From Paraglaciecola sp. T6c (GTDB lineage: Bacteria; Pseudomonadota; Gammaproteobacteria; Enterobacterales; Alteromonadaceae), in contig NC_008228.1 of the NCBI RefSeq assembly GCF_000014225.1, positions 5,022,001-5,086,000 of the forward strand: 64,000 nucleotides of DNA. The letters are read 5' to 3'. The translations under genes were made by a program, and so were the position numbers. The notes under the pieces are model-generated. The model made no database searches. It was not told the origin of the DNA and was given only the letters and a program-made list of their open reading frames with translations. Position 1 is the first letter of the stretch. Every line of letters begins with the position of its first letter. Positions 4,210 to 39,594 of this stretch are shown here, in pieces.

Positions 4210-5550
4210 ATGACACTCACTACTTCTGCGCCGCGCTCAAGCGTTATGCCCATGTGCATTATTGCACTGCTGTTTTTCATATTCGGCTTTGTAACTTGGT
4301 TAAACGGCGCACTGATCCCTTTTTTACAAGTGGTGTGTCAGCTCTCTGAAACTCAAGCTCTGATGATTGCATCCTGCTTTTACTTTGCTTACGTAGTGAT
4401 GGCGTTGCCCATGGCTATGATCTTGGAAAAGGTCGGGTATCAGTCATCCATGGTATTAGGGTTAAGCATTATTGCCCTTGGCTTGCTTGGTTTTATCCCT
4501 GCAGCGTTACTGCAAGAATTTTGGATCTTCCTGGTGGCGCAGTTCGTTATTGGCAGCGGCTTAACCATCTTACAAACTGCTGCTAACCCTTATGTGGTCA
4601 ATGTCGGGCCAACCAAAAGTGCTGCTGCGCGCATCGCGATTATGGGGTTACTCAATAAAGGCGCTGGTATATTAGCGCCTATTCTTTTCACCGCATGGGT
4701 ATTAGGCGGCTTTAGCGACATTAACCTAGCGACTGTCAATCAGCTGCCTGCAGAGCAACAGCAATTGCAAATCGAAAGCATGGCTCATCAATTGATTACG
4801 CCATACGTGGGTATGGCCATTGCCTTGCTAGCATTAGCCGGTGGTTTGTCGCGTATTTCGCTGCCCGATTTGGCTTTACTAGAGTCTCCTGTCAATGACG
4901 AGTCAGACGCGCTTGAAGATAGCGCTCGTCATCAAACTAAAAGCGTAATTTGGCAATTTCCCCAGCTAGTGCTTGGCGCCATCGCACTGTTCTTTTATGT
5001 GGGGGTGGAAGTTATCGCCGGCGACACGATTGGTTTATATGGTGCGAGCATAGGAGTCGCTAACGCCACCACGCTCACGTCATATACCATGGGCTTTATG
5101 GTGTTGGGTTACTTTCTTGGCTTGGTGTGTATCCCACGCTTTGTATCACAAGCAAATGCCCTGCGCATCAGTGCCATTGGCGGTTTGGTCATTACCGTTT
5201 TATTGCTGTTCTCGTCAAATGAGCAAACCATGCTAGCGCAATTACTTTGGGGATGGACCGGGATCGCCGTGATCCCAAACAGCGTCGCGTTAATTGCCCT
5301 ACTGGGCTTGGCCAATGCCATGGTGTGGCCAACGCTGTGGCCTTTAGCCCTGGCGGATTTGGGGCGTTTTACCCCAAAAGGCTCTGCGATTTTAATCATG
5401 GGTATTGCTGGGGGCGCGCTGATGCCAATTATCTATGGGCAATTGGCTCAAGCGAGTAATAGCCAACAAGCTTATTGGATATTATTGCCAGGGTATTTAA
5501 TGATAGGTTTTTACGCATTTTATGGTCACAAAATGCGTAGTTGGTCGTAA
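4210..5550 (+). CDS. nagP: MFS sugar permease, NagP-like N-acetylglucosamine transporter
   Basis: 446-residue, 12-segment major-facilitator permease of the fucose/glucose-galactose:H+ symporter family. The N-terminal FGFVTWLNGALIPFLQ segment and the QTAANPYVVNVGP motif in TM4-5 are typical of the FucP/GluP/NagP group. Its place directly behind nagB-II and nagA supports GlcNAc, or a related amino sugar such as MurNAc, as substrate. It is preceded by AAGGGACAACCC as ribosome site and ends convergently with the LD-carboxypeptidase gene. Confidence 0.85.
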   Translation: MTLTTSAPRSSVMPMCIIALLFFIFGFVTWLNGALIPFLQVVCQLSETQALMIASCFYFAYVVMALPMAMILEKVGYQSSMVLGLSIIALGLLGFIPAALLQEFWIFLVAQFVIGSGLTILQTAANPYVVNVGPTKSAAARIAIMGLLNKGAGILAPILFTAWVLGGFSDINLATVNQLPAEQQQLQIESMAHQLITPYVGMAIALLALAGGLSRISLPDLALLESPVNDESDALEDSARHQTKSVIWQFPQLVLGAIALFFYVGVEVIAGDTIGLYGASIGVANATTLTSYTMGFMVLGYFLGLVCIPRFVSQANALRISAIGGLVITVLLLFSSNEQTMLAQLLWGWTGIAVIPNSVALIALLGLANAMVWPTLWPLALADLGRFTPKGSAILIMGIAGGALMPIIYGQLAQASNSQQAYWILLPGYLMIGFYAFYGHKMRSWS

Positions 5551-5595
5551 GTAACGGCGTGTACTAGGAGTCATGCCGCAAAATAGATGGTTAAA

Positions 5596-5615
5596 CGCGG
5601 TGTTAAAGCACCGCG
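5596..5615. terminator. Hairpin between convergent nagP and LD-carboxypeptidase genes
   Basis: CGCGGTG-TTAAAG-CACCGCG, a 7-bp stem with 6-base loop, overlaps the last codons and stop of the minus-strand gene and lies 45 bases after nagP. There is no long T-run on either side, so it is a weak bidirectional terminator candidate. Confidence 0.5.
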
Positions 5616-6676
5616 CTTTCATCTAGCGTTAATTGTTGCTTGCTTGCATCAAGTGTTGCCATAGCGCCAACAGGTACGGTCGCCATATCTTTAATGTGAC
5701 CAATCATCACACCACTTAGGACGGGCACATTCAAGTCACCTAAACGGTCCTTTAGAACATGTTCAACGCTAAAGGACGGGCCGCTGCTCGGCTGACAATC
5801 GGTACATTTACCAAACACTATACCTACTACCTTGTCCAATCTACCTGCCAGTTTAAGGTGGGTTAGCATACCGTCGATCCGGTAGGGCGCTTCCTCTACG
5901 TCTTCTAAGAATAGGATTTTGCCTGCGTAATCTGGCTCATAAGGGCTACCCACTAACTTCACCATAAGCGACAGATTGCCACCAATTAATACGCCCGATG
6001 CCTGCCCCTCGGTAACGGTTGTAAGACGGTTGTCTTTCTCGGCTTGACCTTCGGCGGGTTCAAACACCGGCGGTGTGGCCAGTGGCATACTCTTCACAGG
6101 ATTGAACAACACGCTTTTGAATTCACCTAAGGTGTACTCAGTAAAGCTCTGTTTCGCAATAGGTCCGTGAAAGGTCATGATGCCGCTTCGAGTGTAAATC
6201 GCATTAAGCAGCGCAGTGACATCGCTATAACCGAGAAACACCTTGGGGTTTTGGCGGATGAGGTCATAATCTAAATAAGGCAAAATTCGTGGCGAGCCAT
6301 AGCCACCACGTAAGCAAAAAATAGCGTCTACGGTATTATCAGCAAACATGCTATTTACGTCGTTCGCTCTGTCTTTATCGGTACCCGCTAAATAAGCGGT
6401 GCGATCAAACAAATGAGTGGCCGTTTTCACCTTGAAACCAAAAGAGCGAATAATATCCATGGCGAAGTAGATTTCTTGGTCTTCCCAAGTATTGCTGCTT
6501 GGAGCAATGAGCCCAATGGTCTGGCCTGCCTTTAAGCGCTTGGGTTTACGAATTTTTACTGAGCGCTCACCAGCATCAGCCACAGATGCGGCACTTACTG
6601 ATGTAAGCGGAATCAACGCGCTCGCCATCGCAGAAGTAATAAAGGCTTTGAGTAACGTTCGTCGGACTATCATCAT
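5603..6676 (-). CDS. Tat-exported LD-carboxypeptidase (LdcA/MccF family, S66)
   Basis: 357 residues from ATG 6676. The start is chosen because the protein then opens with a twin-arginine signal (MIVRRTLLKAF), a hydrophobic stretch and a small-residue cleavage region. Upstream TTG extensions would bury the signal. The mature part is an S66 serine peptidase with IGLIAPSS near the start, nucleophile Ser in FLGYSDVTAL, Glu in ILFLEDVEEAPYRIDG and His in GVMIGHIKDM. Family members trim the terminal D-Ala from L,D-linked wall tetrapeptides; B. subtilis pairs YkfA (S66) with YkfC (NlpC/P60), and both types occur in this block. Export is unusual, as E. coli LdcA is cytoplasmic. Confidence 0.85.
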   Translation of the reverse strand: MMIVRRTLLKAFITSAMASALIPLTSVSAASVADAGERSVKIRKPKRLKAGQTIGLIAPSSNTWEDQEIYFAMDIIRSFGFKVKTATHLFDRTAYLAGTDKDRANDVNSMFADNTVDAIFCLRGGYGSPRILPYLDYDLIRQNPKVFLGYSDVTALLNAIYTRSGIMTFHGPIAKQSFTEYTLGEFKSVLFNPVKSMPLATPPVFEPAEGQAEKDNRLTTVTEGQASGVLIGGNLSLMVKLVGSPYEPDYAGKILFLEDVEEAPYRIDGMLTHLKLAGRLDKVVGIVFGKCTDCQPSSGPSFSVEHVLKDRLGDLNVPVLSGVMIGHIKDMATVPVGAMATLDASKQQLTLDESAVL

Positions 6677-8239: not shown

Positions 8240-9346
8240 CTATGAACTCGATACACGGAACAACACTTCATCCATTTCCATCCACGCGTCGAATATTTCC
8301 TGACAATCATAAATAATGGTGTTAATAGGTTCTTTCACCCTATGCTCGTTCAAAATCCCGCATTCCAACAGTTCAGTGATCGCTGTACTGGCTTCGAGTA
8401 ATGTCCATCCAAATTGCCCTGAAAGATAAGCAGGAGTAACGATTGGTTGCTCTGAGATGTGCGACAGTAAAGTGGCTGCATGCTGGCTGAGTTGTCTTAG
8501 TGTTAGTTTTTTTTGAATGAATGAATTTGCCATTATAAGCCTTTTGCACAAGGTCTCAGTCGTGTTGATACTCCATTGAATAGCCTCATCCCAAAAATCA
8601 AAAACCTGCTGCCATTGCCCTTGCATAATAGCACTTGGCGCATCTAAGTAACCATTATGTTGGTGAGCCAAACGAAATAGAAATGGACTGATATATGCCT
8701 TTTCATCCCGCATAATTTGACTCAAAAGCGCATCAACTATTGCTCTGTTAAGGCGCCCATTACCATCATTGAATGGATGGATCAGAATAAATTGATTGGA
8801 TAACATAATGATATCTTCAATGCCTACTTGCTCGATATTGTTAACGTAGTTAATCCAGTCGGTCATTAAATCCGAGACGTTTTCAGGGGGCGGTGGAACG
8901 ATATGCGCCGTATCGGGTGAGCGCCCTCCTATCCAATTTTGCACATCTCTGAAACGCCCTCCATTGTGATGATGAGGATCAAGTGACTTATGCACTTCAC
9001 ACAAAGTGCCCAGTGTAAGTGGTCTTTTGCGTAATGATTGTAAAGCGCTTCGATACCGTTCGGATTGTAGTGTTACAGATTCAGCCAACTCATCCTTGCG
9101 CTTAAAGCCCAAACGCATCAGCGATAGACGCTTTCGAGAGACTAACCTGCCCTGCTTTAGGCTGAACCCCCCAGCTAAATAACGTGACGTAAAACGCTGC
9201 AAGTTGCCGACTTGACAATGCGTTTCTAAAAACGTCGATACTAGTGGTGTTGGTAACGCTAATGCACAAGTTTGATTGGCAAGACTTTCAGGCATTAAGC
9301 ATCGGTAGTTTGCATTATTGCTTGGCCATACTTTTTCGATATACAT
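8240..9346 (-). CDS. Fic family protein, probable AMP-transferase
   Basis: 368 residues from ATG 9346, which has GGAA six bases upstream; a TTG five codons earlier is the alternative. The complete Fic motif HPFNDGNGRLNR is at 190-201 with catalytic His190, so it should transfer AMP (or another nucleotide-derived group) to a protein hydroxyl. The N-terminal part (about 20-120) resembles the Fic_N region and the last 80 residues look like a winged-helix DNA-binding domain. No classical S/T-xxx-E-G/N inhibitory helix could be picked out, so how it is held inactive is unclear. No small antitoxin gene precedes it; it is downstream of a secreted-protein gene on the same strand with a hairpin between. 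Confidence 0.88.
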   Translation of the reverse strand: MYIEKVWPSNNANYRCLMPESLANQTCALALPTPLVSTFLETHCQVGNLQRFTSRYLAGGFSLKQGRLVSRKRLSLMRLGFKRKDELAESVTLQSERYRSALQSLRKRPLTLGTLCEVHKSLDPHHHNGGRFRDVQNWIGGRSPDTAHIVPPPPENVSDLMTDWINYVNNIEQVGIEDIIMLSNQFILIHPFNDGNGRLNRAIVDALLSQIMRDEKAYISPFLFRLAHQHNGYLDAPSAIMQGQWQQVFDFWDEAIQWSINTTETLCKRLIMANSFIQKKLTLRQLSQHAATLLSHISEQPIVTPAYLSGQFGWTLLEASTAITELLECGILNEHRVKEPINTIIYDCQEIFDAWMEMDEVLFRVSSS

Positions 9347-9365
9347 AATGTGTTCCAGCAAATGA

Positions 9366-34937: not shown

Positions 34938-34951
34938 TTTTTGTACAAAAA
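34938..34951. promoter_or_regulatory. 14-bp palindrome TTTTTGTACAAAAA upstream of the lysis cassette
   Basis: Perfect palindrome 67 bases before the leader ORF, followed by a direct repeat ACTGGCTTA/ACTGGCTAA (34951-34968). Candidate operator for the cassette; it is not a LexA box. Confidence 0.4.
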
Positions 34952-35017
34952 CTGGCTTAACTGGCTAAACCTGCTATCAATTTAATTGAAGGTCATTGAT
35001 ATGCAGGAGGCACCGTC

Positions 35018-35104
35018 ATGTTCCCTTTTAAGCGCAGAATATTCACTTCACCATCCGACTTACCACATTCAACAATGCTGACATGGGAGAGCACCCTATG
35101 CTAG
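35018..35104 (+). CDS. 28-codon leader ORF overlapping the endolysin start
   Basis: ATG 35018 is preceded at 7 bases by a full consensus AGGAGG (35005-35010), the best ribosome site in this region. The peptide begins MFPFKRRIFTSP and ends with the stop TAG 35102-35104, overlapping the endolysin ATG at 35098 (ATGCTAG). It is too short for a holin and has no membrane segment. The likely role is translational coupling, holding endolysin synthesis to leader translation. Confidence 0.5.
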   Translation: MFPFKRRIFTSPSDLPHSTMLTWESTLC

Positions 35105-36477
35105 ATGCTGTCAGCGCCGACGTACTTAACGTGCGAAGTTTGCCGTCAACCACCAGCGCCATCGTCGGACAGCTTACGCGGGGTATGGTGATGGTAACCA
35201 CCCCGATGCAGCATGGTTGGGTGCAATTTCGTTTCGGTGGCACATTCGGCTTTGTATCAGGTCACTATCTGCAAGCCGTACGCGACTTAACCCGCCTAAC
35301 GGGCACAGTAAATACACAACTGCTAAACATTCGCCAAGAACCTCATGCAGGCGCAACCGTACTAGCTAGCGTTGCCCTTGGGGCTTCAATTAAAACCTTA
35401 GCGGTGGTGGGCGATTGGTTAGAAGTTGAGTTTAATGGGCACCAAGCCTACACGTTCGCAAAACACGTCGATTTGGTGTACGCCGATAACGGCTATTACG
35501 CGAGTGTCACTGCCAGTGCATTGAACGTGCGCAGTGCTCCGCATCATCAAGCTAGCATTTTTGGTCAACTCGCTGCTAATAGCCTCGTTTGGGTGGAAGG
35601 AGATCAGCAAACTTGGTCGCAAATACGCTTTAATGGCAATCGCGGGTATGTGGCCAGCACCTATTTGCAAGTCGCGCCGGTAGCTGATGATGGCACGCCT
35701 GCAAAACAGAATGATCACCAGGATCCACATGACGAATTACTCGATAATGAGCTTCCTACTGCTGCTACAGCCCTAGAGCCGGCAGAACAATTAACCCCAA
35801 ATCTTATTCTCACGGTGGCTGGTAGCAAAGAGCAACGTGCTGTGGCTGCTACCTGGAATCGCTGGGGTGCGCTGCTAACAACGCTCTGTGCTGAAAAGGA
35901 TATTGATGTGGCCTGCGCGGTCGCTGTTTTGTGCGTAGAAAGCCGAGGTAAAGGTTTTGAGCAAAACAACAGTGACCGTTTGATTATTCGGTTTGAGAAT
36001 CATAAATTTTGGAAATATTGGGGCAAGCACCACCCTCAGCAGTATCGTCAGCACTTTTCTTATGATCCGAAAAAAGTCTGGACTAAGCATCAATGGCGAG
36101 CAAATCCGAGTGATCCATGGCAGAACTTTCATGGTGTGCAATCAAAAGAGTGGCAGGTATTCGAGTTTGCACGCAGTTTAGATGAAAATGCCGCCATGTT
36201 ATCGATCAGTATGGGTGCACCGCAAATAATGGGCTTCCATTATGAACGCATAGGTTATCAATCTGTGGTCGAGATGTTCGACGCCTTTTGCCAAGGCATA
36301 CCCGCGCACATACACGGCTTATTTGAGTTTTTTGACCACATTATGCATCAGCATTTACGCGACCATGCTTTCGAGAACTTTGCAGCCTTATACAACGGGA
36401 GCGGTCAAAAAGCCTTATACGGCCGGCTGATAAAAAACCACAACTACGCATTTATAAAATTACACCCGAATGCATAA
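35098..36477 (+). CDS. Endolysin-like N-acetylmuramidase with three SH3 domains
   Basis: 459 residues from ATG 35098, with GGGAGA seven bases upstream. Three bacterial SH3 repeats (about 5-65, 70-130, 138-198; signatures VLNVRSLPSTTSA, LLNIRQEPHAGA, ALNVRSAPHHQAS) for wall binding, a linker, then an N-acetylmuramidase domain (PF11860/DUF3380) at about 255-455. Candidate catalytic E281 lies in CVESRGKGFEQNN, followed by the conserved RFENHKFWKYW. No signal peptide, so it needs a holin to reach the wall, and one follows 47 bases later. Phage endolysins have this architecture, yet no phage structural gene is in the window. Confidence 0.88.
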   Translation: MLDAVSADVLNVRSLPSTTSAIVGQLTRGMVMVTTPMQHGWVQFRFGGTFGFVSGHYLQAVRDLTRLTGTVNTQLLNIRQEPHAGATVLASVALGASIKTLAVVGDWLEVEFNGHQAYTFAKHVDLVYADNGYYASVTASALNVRSAPHHQASIFGQLAANSLVWVEGDQQTWSQIRFNGNRGYVASTYLQVAPVADDGTPAKQNDHQDPHDELLDNELPTAATALEPAEQLTPNLILTVAGSKEQRAVAATWNRWGALLTTLCAEKDIDVACAVAVLCVESRGKGFEQNNSDRLIIRFENHKFWKYWGKHHPQQYRQHFSYDPKKVWTKHQWRANPSDPWQNFHGVQSKEWQVFEFARSLDENAAMLSISMGAPQIMGFHYERIGYQSVVEMFDAFCQGIPAHIHGLFEFFDHIMHQHLRDHAFENFAALYNGSGQKALYGRLIKNHNYAFIKLHPNA

Positions 36478-36524
36478 CTCAAGCACCACAAATCACCCCA
36501 CGGACACACCCGAGGAGCAAGAAC

Positions 36525-36956
36525 ATGAACGTATTTTCATTTATCAGTAATTTGTTTGAACCTGCCGTAAAACTAGTTGACGATCTACATACCAGTGATG
36601 AAGAACGCTTGCAGTTACAAAGCCAAATTAAAGCCGTTGAAAACGAACTGTTAGCCAAGGTCATAGACTATGAAAATCAATTACTACAAAGCAAGACCGC
36701 AATCATCACTGCGGAGTCTACTGGGCAATCTTGGATCCAGCGCAACTGGCGTCCTATCACCATGCTCACGTTTTTAGCTCTAGTGGTACTAGACAGTTTC
36801 GGTTGGTTACCCAACCCCTTGGCTGATGAGGCTTGGACATTGTTACAAATAGGCTTAGGTGGTTATGTTGCGGGTCGTTCAGCTGAGAAAATCACCCAGC
36901 AATATTTACAAGCCAGACCTGCTGATGGCAAAGCAGCTTCATCGGCAAAGGGTTAG
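36525..36956 (+). CDS. GTA_holin_3TM family holin
   Basis: 143 residues. A charged, coiled-coil-like N-terminus (about 22-60), then GQSWIQRNWRPITMLTFLAL and PLADEAWTLLQIGLGGY, the signature of the holin family PF11351 named for gene-transfer-agent release. Two clear membrane segments (76-93, 103-119) are visible; the family's third may be the weak N-terminal hydrophobic stretch. Holins form lesions that let signal-less endolysins out. GAGGAG at 36512-36517 is a strong ribosome site. The endolysin gene just upstream is the obvious partner. Confidence 0.88.
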   Translation: MNVFSFISNLFEPAVKLVDDLHTSDEERLQLQSQIKAVENELLAKVIDYENQLLQSKTAIITAESTGQSWIQRNWRPITMLTFLALVVLDSFGWLPNPLADEAWTLLQIGLGGYVAGRSAEKITQQYLQARPADGKAASSAKG

Positions 36957-37098
36957 TGAATGCATTAACGAGAGCGACCCTGCTATATTCTGCGGGTCGA
37001 GCGTATAAGATATGTTCGCTCTTCACTTAGTGAGTGATGCATTGCGTCCCTTACTGTCACATTTCACATGTTCTGCTTTACCTCTTACTCTCTCTTTT
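36957..37098. other. Gap after the lysis cassette
   Basis: First part of the 460-base region before glnN; no gene, terminator or repeat stands out. The regulatory sites of glnN begin at 37099. Confidence 0.4.
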
Positions 37099-37115
37099 CG
37101 CACCACCATGAAGCA
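37099..37115 (+). promoter_or_regulatory. NtrC-like binding site 1 upstream of glnN
   Basis: CGCACCACCATGAAGCA matches TGCACCA-N3-TGGTGCA at 11 of 14 fixed positions. Confidence 0.5.
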
Positions 37116-37138
37116 AAGATTGATAAGCCCTCTTTTTT

Positions 37139-37155
37139 AGCACCAATTTAGTGCG
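37139..37155 (+). promoter_or_regulatory. NtrC-like binding site 2 upstream of glnN
   Basis: AGCACCAATTTAGTGCG matches the NtrC consensus at 11 of 14 fixed positions, 40 bases from site 1, in the enhancer position relative to the sigma54-like promoter at 37318. Confidence 0.55.
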
Positions 37156-37317
37156 AATTCCAAGATGATATGACACTTAGTTGCCCTTCGCCCTGCTCGC
37201 TAAGCCCTGCCTTCTGTGCGCTGGTAAAGGCTTTAGATAGGCTCAATTGCTTGCTAAACAGGCAGTTCCGTTAACATGTTGGATATTTTCAAATTTGCTC
37301 GTTAAAACAGCAGTTTT

Positions 37318-37333
37318 TGGCGCAGTTATTGTA
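37318..37333 (+). promoter_or_regulatory. Sigma54-type promoter of glnN
   Basis: TGGCGC-AGTTA-TTGTA, with correct spacing between the GG at -24 and the G at -12 (consensus TGGCAC..TTGCA). The -12 element has GT instead of GC, the one important mismatch. Confidence 0.5.
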
Positions 37334-37419
37334 TAGCACAAGTTATATCCAGAAGACGCATAATACTGGTCTCACCGCCGCTGCGCTCACAACCCATTAC
37401 TTATCAACAAGGAATACCT

Positions 37420-39594
37420 ATGTCGGGTCATGCTTCACGCCTTAACGCTATTACGCAAATCACTAACAGAGCACCAAAAGAGTGCACCGGTACTAAGCCG
37501 CTAACAGATATTTGGGCGACAGATGTATTTGGTCTAGCAAAAATGGAAGAAGCCCTGTCGAAAAATGCATTTAAAGCGATTAAAAATACCGTCACGACTG
37601 GCGCGCCGCTCGATCCAGCTACCGCGGATGTAGTTGCCTCAGCGATGAAAGTATGGGCTATCAGCAAAGGGGCAAAGTTCTTTTCGCATGTCTTCTACCC
37701 TATGACCAACATCACGGCCGAAAAGCATGATGGCTTCATCATTACTAATCCAGAAGGTGCTGCCATAACTGAGTTTACGGGCAGCCTGTTGATTAAGGGG
37801 GAGCCTGACGGTTCATCTTTCCCTAATGGTAGTTTACGTATGACCAACGCGGCACGTGGCTATACCGCGTGGGATCCCACCAGCCCCGCTTACATTATGC
37901 ATACTGCTAATGGCGCGACGTTGATGATCCCTAGCGTATTTATTTCGTGGACTGGGGAAGCACTGGATAAAAAGATCCCATTGTTGCGCTCAAATGCCGC
38001 CATGGATAAAGCAGCCCGCAAAGTACTTAGCCTTATGGGCGAAGAAACAATTGCGCCGTTGAACGCTAGCTGTGGTGCAGAGCAAGAATACTTTCTTGTG
38101 GATGAGCATTTTGCCAACTTGCGTCCAGATTTGTTACTTGCAGGTCGCAGTTTATTTGGTGCAGCTCCTGCGAAAGGCCAGCAGTTCGATGATCATTACT
38201 TTGGTGCTATTCCAGCCCGTGTTCAGGTGTTTATGCAAGCCTTTGAGGACAAGCTTTACCGTTTAGGTATACCGGCTAAAACTCACCATAACGAAGTGGC
38301 GCCCGGGCAATTTGAAATAGCGCCTTACTTTGAATCCTCGAACGTGGCCGCTGATCACCAACAATTAATGATGACATTGATGAAAAGCACGGCTAAAGAG
38401 CACGGTTTCTTGTGCCTGTTACATGAAAAGCCTTTCGCTGGCGTCAATGGCTCTGGTAAGCACGTAAACTGGTCAGTAGGCAACGCCACCCAAGGCAACT
38501 TGCTAGACCCAGGTAGCACACCACACGATAACCTAAACTTCTTGCTGTTCTGTGGCGCGGTTATTCGCGGTGTGCACAAACACGGCGGTTTATTGCGTGC
38601 GGTTATTGCTTCGGCATCAAATGACCATCGCTTAGGTGCAAACGAAGCACCACCAGCCATACTTTCTGTGTATTTAGGCGACCAATTAGAAAGCGTATTC
38701 AACGACATCAAAGCCGGTAAATTACTTGAAAAAGCCAAAGGCGGTTTGATGGACCTAGGCTTGTCGCAAATATTAAAGTTTGAACGTGACCCCGGGGACC
38801 GTAACCGTACCTCTCCTTTCGCCTTTACCGGAAACCGCTTTGAATTCCGCGCGGTAGGCTCGTCTCAGTCAGTTTCTGGGCCACTGGTCGCTATGAATAC
38901 CATGCTAGCCGATTCATTAGATTGGATAGCTGAAAGGCTTGAGGCTGCACTTGCCAACGGAACAGATAAAACTGCGGCGGTTATTGTGGTGCTAAAAGAA
39001 CTAATGGAAATGCACGGTAATGTGGTTTTCGGTGGTGACGGCTACAGTGAAGAATGGCATAAAGAAGCGGTAGAAGTTCGCTGCCTCAAAAACCTACCCA
39101 CCAGTGCCGATGCCCTACCTGAATTTAAAGCGCCAGAAGTGATCGATTTATTTGTTAACACAGGCGTGTTGTCACAGGACGAGTTATTTAGCCGCTTTGA
39201 AGTGTACGCTGAGCAATATATTTTATCTCTTGAGGTAGAAGCAAAACTCGTTATTGATATGGCCACCACGCAAATATACCCTGCAGTGACTCAGCACCTA
39301 ACCCACTTAGCGGATGTCAGCCAAACCTTATCAGGCCTAAGTTTAAGTCTAGAAAACACCGACTTAAACGAAGCGGTAGAACAGGCCAATGGCATGATGA
39401 GCGCGGTAAAAGAGCTGAAAGTAGCACTAGCAGAGCATAATTTTGCGAGCACGGAAGAACACATGTCGTTTAGCGCGAAAACCTTGTGCCCATTATTGCT
39501 AAAAGTACGTGAACACGCAGATACACTTGAAGGCATGGTAGCTGATGACTTATGGCCGCTGCCTAAGTATCAAGAGATGTTATTTATTAAGTAA
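37420..39594 (+). CDS. glnN: Type III glutamine synthetase
   Basis: 724 residues, the size of GSIII (GlnN), far longer than the usual GlnA (about 470). Family marks are the unique N-terminal region with WATDVFGLAKMEEAL, the HVFYPMTNITAEKHDGF segment, and the metal/substrate residues in CGAEQEYFLVDE, KTHHNEVAPGQFEIAP and NGSGKHVNWSVG. It makes glutamine from glutamate and ammonia. AAGGAATACCT precedes ATG 37420. Upstream NtrC-like and sigma54-like sites suggest induction by nitrogen limitation. GSIII is best known from Bacteroidetes and cyanobacteria, so transfer at some stage is possible. Confidence 0.93.
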   Translation: MSGHASRLNAITQITNRAPKECTGTKPLTDIWATDVFGLAKMEEALSKNAFKAIKNTVTTGAPLDPATADVVASAMKVWAISKGAKFFSHVFYPMTNITAEKHDGFIITNPEGAAITEFTGSLLIKGEPDGSSFPNGSLRMTNAARGYTAWDPTSPAYIMHTANGATLMIPSVFISWTGEALDKKIPLLRSNAAMDKAARKVLSLMGEETIAPLNASCGAEQEYFLVDEHFANLRPDLLLAGRSLFGAAPAKGQQFDDHYFGAIPARVQVFMQAFEDKLYRLGIPAKTHHNEVAPGQFEIAPYFESSNVAADHQQLMMTLMKSTAKEHGFLCLLHEKPFAGVNGSGKHVNWSVGNATQGNLLDPGSTPHDNLNFLLFCGAVIRGVHKHGGLLRAVIASASNDHRLGANEAPPAILSVYLGDQLESVFNDIKAGKLLEKAKGGLMDLGLSQILKFERDPGDRNRTSPFAFTGNRFEFRAVGSSQSVSGPLVAMNTMLADSLDWIAERLEAALANGTDKTAAVIVVLKELMEMHGNVVFGGDGYSEEWHKEAVEVRCLKNLPTSADALPEFKAPEVIDLFVNTGVLSQDELFSRFEVYAEQYILSLEVEAKLVIDMATTQIYPAVTQHLTHLADVSQTLSGLSLSLENTDLNEAVEQANGMMSAVKELKVALAEHNFASTEEHMSFSAKTLCPLLLKVREHADTLEGMVADDLWPLPKYQEMLFIK

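Follow-up and report, generated by a model that had tools for sequence, protein, structure and literature searches.

A gene for a phage-type endolysin and a gene for a holin lie side by side in the genome of Paraglaciecola sp. T6c (a single contig of 5.19 Mb, close to Paraglaciecola mesophila KMM 241), which raises the question of what such a pair does in a bacterial chromosome. In this study, we analysed a window of 64,000 nucleotides around the pair (NC_008228.1, positions 5,022,001 to 5,086,000). The pair is probably the bacterium's own tool for opening its cell wall and not the leftover of a virus, because it is well preserved, has long been kept by relatives and stands away from recognisable virus structural genes. 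In the literature consulted, accounts of domesticated lysis cassettes centre on enterobacteria and on the toxins or chitinases linked to the cassettes, and no paper joining Paraglaciecola and holin was found among open-licence publications. A pair that is under strong selection, lacks an evident linked cargo and belongs to environmental marine bacteria thus provides a clean test case for holin and endolysin as a general wall gate.

The lysin and holin genes and their surroundings

A first-pass annotation of the window described an SH3-muramidase endolysin followed 47 bases later by a holin of the GTA_holin_3TM type, and both genes proved to be real and correctly placed (Table 1). The lysin matches the Pfam family Muramidase (PF11860, 126.5 bits, cut-off 22.3, E 1.7e-36), three stretches of SH3_3 and a PHROG family named endolysin (E 8.7e-36). 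The holin lies above the gathering cut-off of PF11351 (37.5 bits against 24.8) and matches the holin family phrog_3427 (E 2.5e-37). The longest ORF of the lysin (464 aa) opens at 35083; the true start is probably at 35098, since most relatives begin with MLGAVS or MLDAVS. In agreement with the annotation, a signal peptide is not evident: hydropathy revealed no hydrophobic stretch in the first 60 residues, and a holin-dependent export of the lysin is putative.

Table 1. Features of the cassette, in window coordinates.
Feature	Position	Strand	Basis and remarks
AGGAGG ribosome-binding site of leader ORF	35005..35010	+	Read from sequence; GCAGGAGGCA in L015-L017 too
Leader ORF, 28 codons	35018..35104	+	TAG stop on lysin start codon (ATGCTAG, 35098-35104)
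Endolysin, 459 aa	35098..36477	+	Three SH3 domains, then PF11860 N-acetylmuramidase; Pfam/PHROG matches, start placed by relatives
SH3 region, first to last SH3 stretch with a printed position	35119..35670	+	SH3_3 (3 stretches) and SH3_4; residues 13-59 and 145-196 of the 464-aa ORF
Muramidase domain PF11860	35905..36414	+	Residues 275-444 of the 464-aa ORF
Presumed catalytic Glu281 (CVESRGKGF)	35938..35940	+	Invariant in 17/17 aligned lysins
GAGGAG ribosome-binding site of holin	36512..36517	+	Read from sequence
Holin PF11351 (GTA_holin_3TM), 143 aa	36525..36956	+	Pfam/PHROG matches
Main hydrophobic segment of holin, residues 77-95	36753..36809	+	Hydropathy
C-terminal tail of holin, ending A-K-G	36894..36953	+	A-[KRV]-G end in all 22 cassette holins

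The muramidase is the best-kept part of the lysin, with a mean identity to the window protein of 0.66; the SH3 region reaches 0.50 and the linker 0.25. Its Glu281, which we take to be the catalytic residue, aligns with the VESRG/VESKG motif of the solved PF11860 phage endolysins 7rum, 7q4s and 5nm7. Cassette and phage enzymes thus have this motif in common, but the layout of three SH3 domains and a muramidase was not found in the phage records searched: none of the 373 records matching the lysin (50,697 searched) covers 80% of the query. Among solved structures, the lysin profile retrieved domain relatives only and the holin profile matched none at E 1.

Most cassette holins show one clear transmembrane segment (around residues 77-95) by simple hydropathy, whereas the name GTA_holin_3TM implies three. 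Their C-terminal ends are highly uniform (20 AKG, one ARG and one AVG in 22 cassette holins), and the decayed holin of P. polaris also terminates with AKG. An A-x-G end is absent from the best 80 of 208 viral holin loci as printed (L067 and L110 are printed past a stop, and their true ends also differ; L093 is read into a longer frame), from 16 other genome loci and from two plasmid holins, both near terminase genes. The PF11351 family includes holins of gene-transfer agents such as RcGTA. The family is common to the cassette holin, gene-transfer agents and marine phages, but the cassette holins form a separate clade with the conserved A-K-G tail, are unlinked to particle genes and are partnered by an SH3-muramidase. 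For a characterised member of PF11351, TeaA of phage ICP1, collapse of the proton motive force and holin-like behaviour have been described (PMC7182436); by analogy, permeabilisation of the membrane by the cassette holin is putative.

The cassette sits between nhaA-nhaR and glnN, with secD and secF as further neighbours (named by eye from translations). A second copy was not detected in the genome, where the best other holin match had E 0.84 and no other lysin match reached E 0.01. The annotation's remark that nothing phage-like lies nearby stood up to inspection: the 48 listed window ORFs of at least 150 aa, read by eye, included no recognisable phage gene, and nine of ten uncharacterised window proteins were without match in a PHROG scan. 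The tenth, a Fic-like protein at 8.2-9.4 kb, matches families of unknown function. This protein (8240-9361, named by eye) adjoins a 724-aa protein without PHROG match.

A leader ORF and probable control of the lysin

Strong ribosome-binding sites were attributed to both genes in the annotation. This is correct for the holin (GAGGAG), but the strong AGGAGG upstream of the lysin serves a short leader ORF, which the annotation had missed, and the lysin's own site is GGAG only. Translation of the lysin is probably coupled to that of the leader, since the leader ORF ends on the lysin start codon. A leader was scored where an ATG, GTG or TTG start was preceded by at least 5 bases of AAGGAGGT. Short leader ORFs with such a site, and with a TAG overlapping the lysin start as ATGYTAG, were found at 14 of the 18 Paraglaciecola-type loci, against 0.14 loci expected from dinucleotide shuffles of the upstream sequence; the 14 loci are related and hence not 14 independent events. 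L019, L020, L021 and L029 are without leader at this threshold, L020 having a 26-codon leader with a 4-base site. L028, L030, L031 and L034 lie outside the 18 and were scored separately. The leader is absent in Neiella, L031, L034, G181 and G500, and there the lysin's own site comprises at least 5 bases (Neiella, L031, G500) or 4 bases (L034, G181). In a natural control, 215 gene starts were examined, each set at the ORF's first start codon; nine had such a leader, of which eight were the lysin and one was secF behind secD.

The leader ORFs comprise 16, 22, 28, 38 or 44 codons. Their phase is constant although their lengths vary, and the leader peptides differ between groups, which fits coupling and not a functional peptide. 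A comparable arrangement is iraD of E. coli, which is also translated by coupling to a short upstream ORF (PMC5574718); the gene itself differs from the lysin. An RNA attenuator was rejected, because the folding of eight leader regions did not surpass that of shuffled sequences (z 0.3 to 2.5). SOS control was likewise rejected, as the LexA box CTGT-N8-ACAG is absent within 300 bases upstream at 18 of 18 loci. A sigma-70-like box (TTGNAA-17-TATATT or near) was present at -106 to -109 in L022, L024, L026, L027, L029 and L032, and no convincing promoter was found in the window.

Selection, distribution and origin

Both genes are under purifying selection. In the six of eight chosen pairs with unsaturated synonymous sites, dN/dS (Nei-Gojobori) ranged from 0.047 to 0.096 in the lysin and from 0 to 0.042 in the holin; the other two pairs were saturated, as are synonymous sites between most groups. 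In each of the 190 pairs compared, the holin is less diverged than the lysin, and the divergences of both are correlated (Mantel r 0.82, n=20, permutation p 0.0001), a value inflated by shared ancestry. The frameshifted L017 and the decayed L033 were left out of the lysin comparisons, and L015, whose holin protein is identical to that of the window, was also left out of the Mantel test.

At E 1e-5, the holin is present in 18 of 22 genus genomes, one of them decayed (P. polaris, G054), and missing from four. In P. polaris (L252, L033), the lysin is cut to a 37-residue match and the holin is shortened. This decaying cassette lies between nhaR and glnN, both of which, like nhaA, are matched along most or the whole of the gene. 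In P. chathamensis S18K6 (L017, 4573-5951), the lysin is frameshifted in the second SH3 region, by mutation or assembly error. The cassette is dispensable, as follows from the decay in P. polaris, the frameshifted lysin of P. chathamensis and the four holin-less genomes of the genus. Judged by its sequence, it is nevertheless not a decaying remnant, since dN/dS is low, 18 of 22 genus genomes have the holin and the pair recurs at unrelated sites.

Holin relatives were found at 30 genome loci. In the family sample, 11 of 147 genomes have one and six of these belong to the genus; no lysin relative was found in the short loci of the other five. At E 1e-25, the lysin profile gave long matches in six of 394 genomes from the order, the match in G181 being split in two; of 369 genomes from the class, only that of Paraglaciecola sp. 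T6c itself had one. The pair occurs in Paraglaciecola, strain Aestuariibacter A3R04, two Neiella, a metagenome-assembled genome titled Methylococcaceae, Pseudomaricurvus and two further genera (G181 and G500). Outside the genus, in Neiella and four other lineages, the sites are unrelated and no phage structural gene was recognised there.

A Pfam scan of 19 neighbours at six pair-bearing loci (L020, L023, L027, L028, L031, L034) matched 17 and left two without family. The matches comprised hut-type genes, penicillin amidase, ABC-F ATPase, nitroreductase, an antiporter subunit, SapC, sulfotransferase, NERD, aldehyde dehydrogenase, ParA-like, LeuA-like and BrkB proteins; the NERD domain belongs to one Neiella neighbour of the cassette. 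Of 20 neighbours scanned against PHROGs at seven loci (L229 of G181, L230 of G500, L031, L034, L028, L023, L030), eight matched, none of them a structural family; the remaining neighbours were grouped by similarity only. The matches included a ParB-like protein upstream of the Pseudomaricurvus copy, where ParA-like and ParB-like genes lie directly upstream of the cassette (L034, 1949-4239), and helicase- and nuclease-like proteins of DNA-metabolism families beside the G500 copy. Because of these neighbours, some copies may lie in mobile DNA, and the element around the Pseudomaricurvus copy may be plasmid-like or integrated. The genera have no recurrent neighbour in common, and neither a linked cargo nor a regulator shared by the lineages is evident. 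At six Paraglaciecola loci, however, the opposite strand near the holin carries a gene of the penicillin-amidase family, so that a lineage-specific cargo would be compatible with the data.

A functional tie to Na+/H+ antiport was considered and judged incidental, not disproved. The nhaA gene is near the cassette at nine of 30 loci, one being the decayed P. polaris copy, and is absent (E 1e-60) from five of 20 cassette genomes (G147, G155, G162, G500, G181). An antiporter-subunit-like operon lies upstream of the lysin at L021, L027 and L029 (Proton_antipo_M read in L027 only), where nhaA stands elsewhere. G158 is without holin, yet nhaA and an nhaR relative are present. Against the incidental verdict counts that three of the four holin-less genus genomes (G154, G157, G160) are also without nhaA. 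The synteny comparison suggested in the annotation thus speaks mostly against a tie, and nhaA is probably an incidental neighbour. In Paraglaciecola sp. 20A4 (L016, 3453-4327), the nhaR-like gene is in pieces, whereas nhaA and the cassette look intact.

In a holin tree of 91 rows (20 cassette, 59 viral and 12 other), the 20 cassette holins fall on one side of a branch with support 90/89 (89% of bootstrap trees); the tree has few columns, several long branches and an unsettled bootstrap. Duplicates and rows of less than 85 residues were removed, and L015, L017, L008, L010, L014, L033, L039 and L042 are not included. A lysin relative was found beside none of the best 80 of 208 viral holin loci, and a holin relative beside one of the best 80 of 93 viral muramidase loci (flanks of at most 8 kb on each side). 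The cassette does not look like a slice of presently sampled phage, since its holins form their own clade and carry the A-x-G tail, and the linkage of lysin and holin is near-absent in viral loci. The domesticated cassette proposed in the annotation is supported by purifying selection, retention in the genus, a single holin clade and the lack of phage structural genes in the relatives examined, with the parAB-like genes of Pseudomaricurvus as a caveat. The annotation had also named two observations that would speak to the contrary, a complete prophage at this site in relatives and a random scatter of the pair; no such prophage was found among the relatives examined, and inside the genus the pair is not scattered randomly.

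Possible functions of the cassette

On balance, we favour the reading that the cassette is a domesticated, host-owned wall-opening module of phage type, similar to a type 10 secretion system (T10SS) and without linked spanin or evident cargo. In type 10 secretion, a hydrolase without signal peptide gains access to the wall by means of a holin (PMC9527704, PMC13284979), and whether this process is lytic is disputed (PMC13284979). As in Serratia ChiWXYZ, Salmonella ChiH/ChiP and the typhoid-toxin hydrolase TtsA, a phage-derived holin and a peptidoglycan hydrolase without evident signal peptide appear to be used by the host, and both stand outside any recognisable prophage. However, the cassette has no recognised adjoining chitinase or toxin gene and no linked spanin, and a translational leader precedes its lysin. 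Moreover, TtsA and ChiP are placed in the N4 Gp61 muramidase family in PMC13284979, whereas the cassette muramidase belongs to PF11860 and carries N-terminal SH3 domains. The pair would thus work like a T10SS, but it is not filed as one.

The proposed module may operate as follows. One transcript would carry leader, lysin and holin. Ribosomes would load at the strong site of the leader, terminate at ATGYTAG and restart on the lysin, so that leader translation would throttle lysin output. The lysin would build up folded in the cytoplasm until the holin, loaded at its own strong site, opens a membrane lesion; the conserved A-K-G tail might be a handle for control. The lysin would then cross the membrane, bind peptidoglycan via its SH3 domains and cut glycan strands. 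As no spanin is linked, the outer membrane need not burst. Probably, products of the periplasm or cytoplasm would pass the wall in the manner of type 10 secretion, or a few cells would lyse. Leader and C-terminal tag offer two concrete control points. It is tempting to speculate further, though only tentatively, that the pair is a stand-alone, spanin-free holin-muramidase system without linked cargo, of single origin, which became resident in a marine genus, spread to other genera as a unit of two genes and is metered by a sequence-independent coupling leader on the lysin and an A-K-G recognition tag on the holin. If this is true, these bacteria would possess a general non-lytic gate through the cell wall.

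A rather unlikely alternative is altruistic or stress-triggered lysis, in which a minority of cells would burst to release enzymes, DNA or vesicles, or in which trimming of the wall would tune vesicle formation. The parts are the same as in a lytic cassette, and the greater conservation of the holin in all pairs looks as if timing were guarded. A precedent is the DLP12 lysis module of E. coli K-12, likewise domesticated phage lysis genes kept for envelope purposes, whose deletion changes the output of outer-membrane vesicles (PMC7918800). However, the DLP12 operon includes two spanins and is part of a cryptic prophage, whereas at the cassette no other phage gene was recognised and no spanin was found in 36401-37420, where only short ORFs lie beside the holin, none flagged for a lipobox. 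The missing LexA box likewise does not favour such a triggered lysis.

The annotation also considered service to a particle encoded elsewhere, and the supply of lysis functions in trans to a phage, a tailocin or a gene-transfer agent now appears very unlikely. A P2-like prophage does exist in the genome (about 774-815 kb), recognised by its genes for terminase, P2 capsid, DUF2586 and baseplate J, but this prophage appears to have its own lysis pair: an endolysin-family gene of 199 aa (phrog_33083, 9.7e-19) is followed by a 161-aa protein with holin-like layout, without match in Pfam, PHROG or NCBIfam, which may be its holin. The sole Terminase_6N match of the genome belongs to this prophage, as does the one, sub-threshold match of the portal profile, so that no capsid, portal and terminase set of a gene-transfer agent was found elsewhere. 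HK97 capsid and Phage_sheath_1 had no match in the genome, although the Terminase_6N, portal and capsid searches gave matches in a Caulobacter control genome. Thus, no particle carrying Terminase_6N, HK97 capsid or Phage_sheath_1 profiles evidently needs the cassette. In the prophage (C1, about 774500-815500, L059-L061), terminase and portal genes are on the strand opposite the capsid gene.

An abortive-infection defence, with holin and lysin firing upon infection or membrane damage, is similarly improbable: the sporadic occurrence at unrelated sites outside the genus resembles that of defence genes and an energy poison can trigger holins (TeaA, PMC7182436), but neither of the two cassette proteins matches any PADLOC model at E 0.01 and the pair is long-resident in the genus. 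Least probable is a drifting remnant of a prophage or other mobile element, for which the phage families of both genes, the decay in P. polaris, the parAB-like genes of Pseudomaricurvus and the terminase genes near two plasmid holins could be quoted, but against which stand a dN/dS well under 1 (between most groups, synonymous sites are saturated), a leader phase maintained through length changes, the absence of recognised phage structural genes beside the cassette in the relatives examined (part of the neighbours scanned) and the near-absent linkage in the best viral loci.

Carriage of the host module by plasmids was rejected as well, since none of the four plasmid records with a lysin match covers 80% of the lysin, and the holin relatives in 15 plasmid records are less than 60% identical and, in the two examined, lack the A-x-G end. 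In the 113-kb Aeromonas plasmid NZ_CP077222.1 (L255, 733-6429), a PF11351-type holin of 32.7% identity lies between ParB-like and terminase genes, as in a phage-plasmid. In Aliiglaciecola (L038-L040, about 5241-6474), where BLAST found no lysin relative alongside, an orphan PF11351 holin (67.4 bits in L039) lies behind a small PqiA-domain protein (PqiA read in L039).
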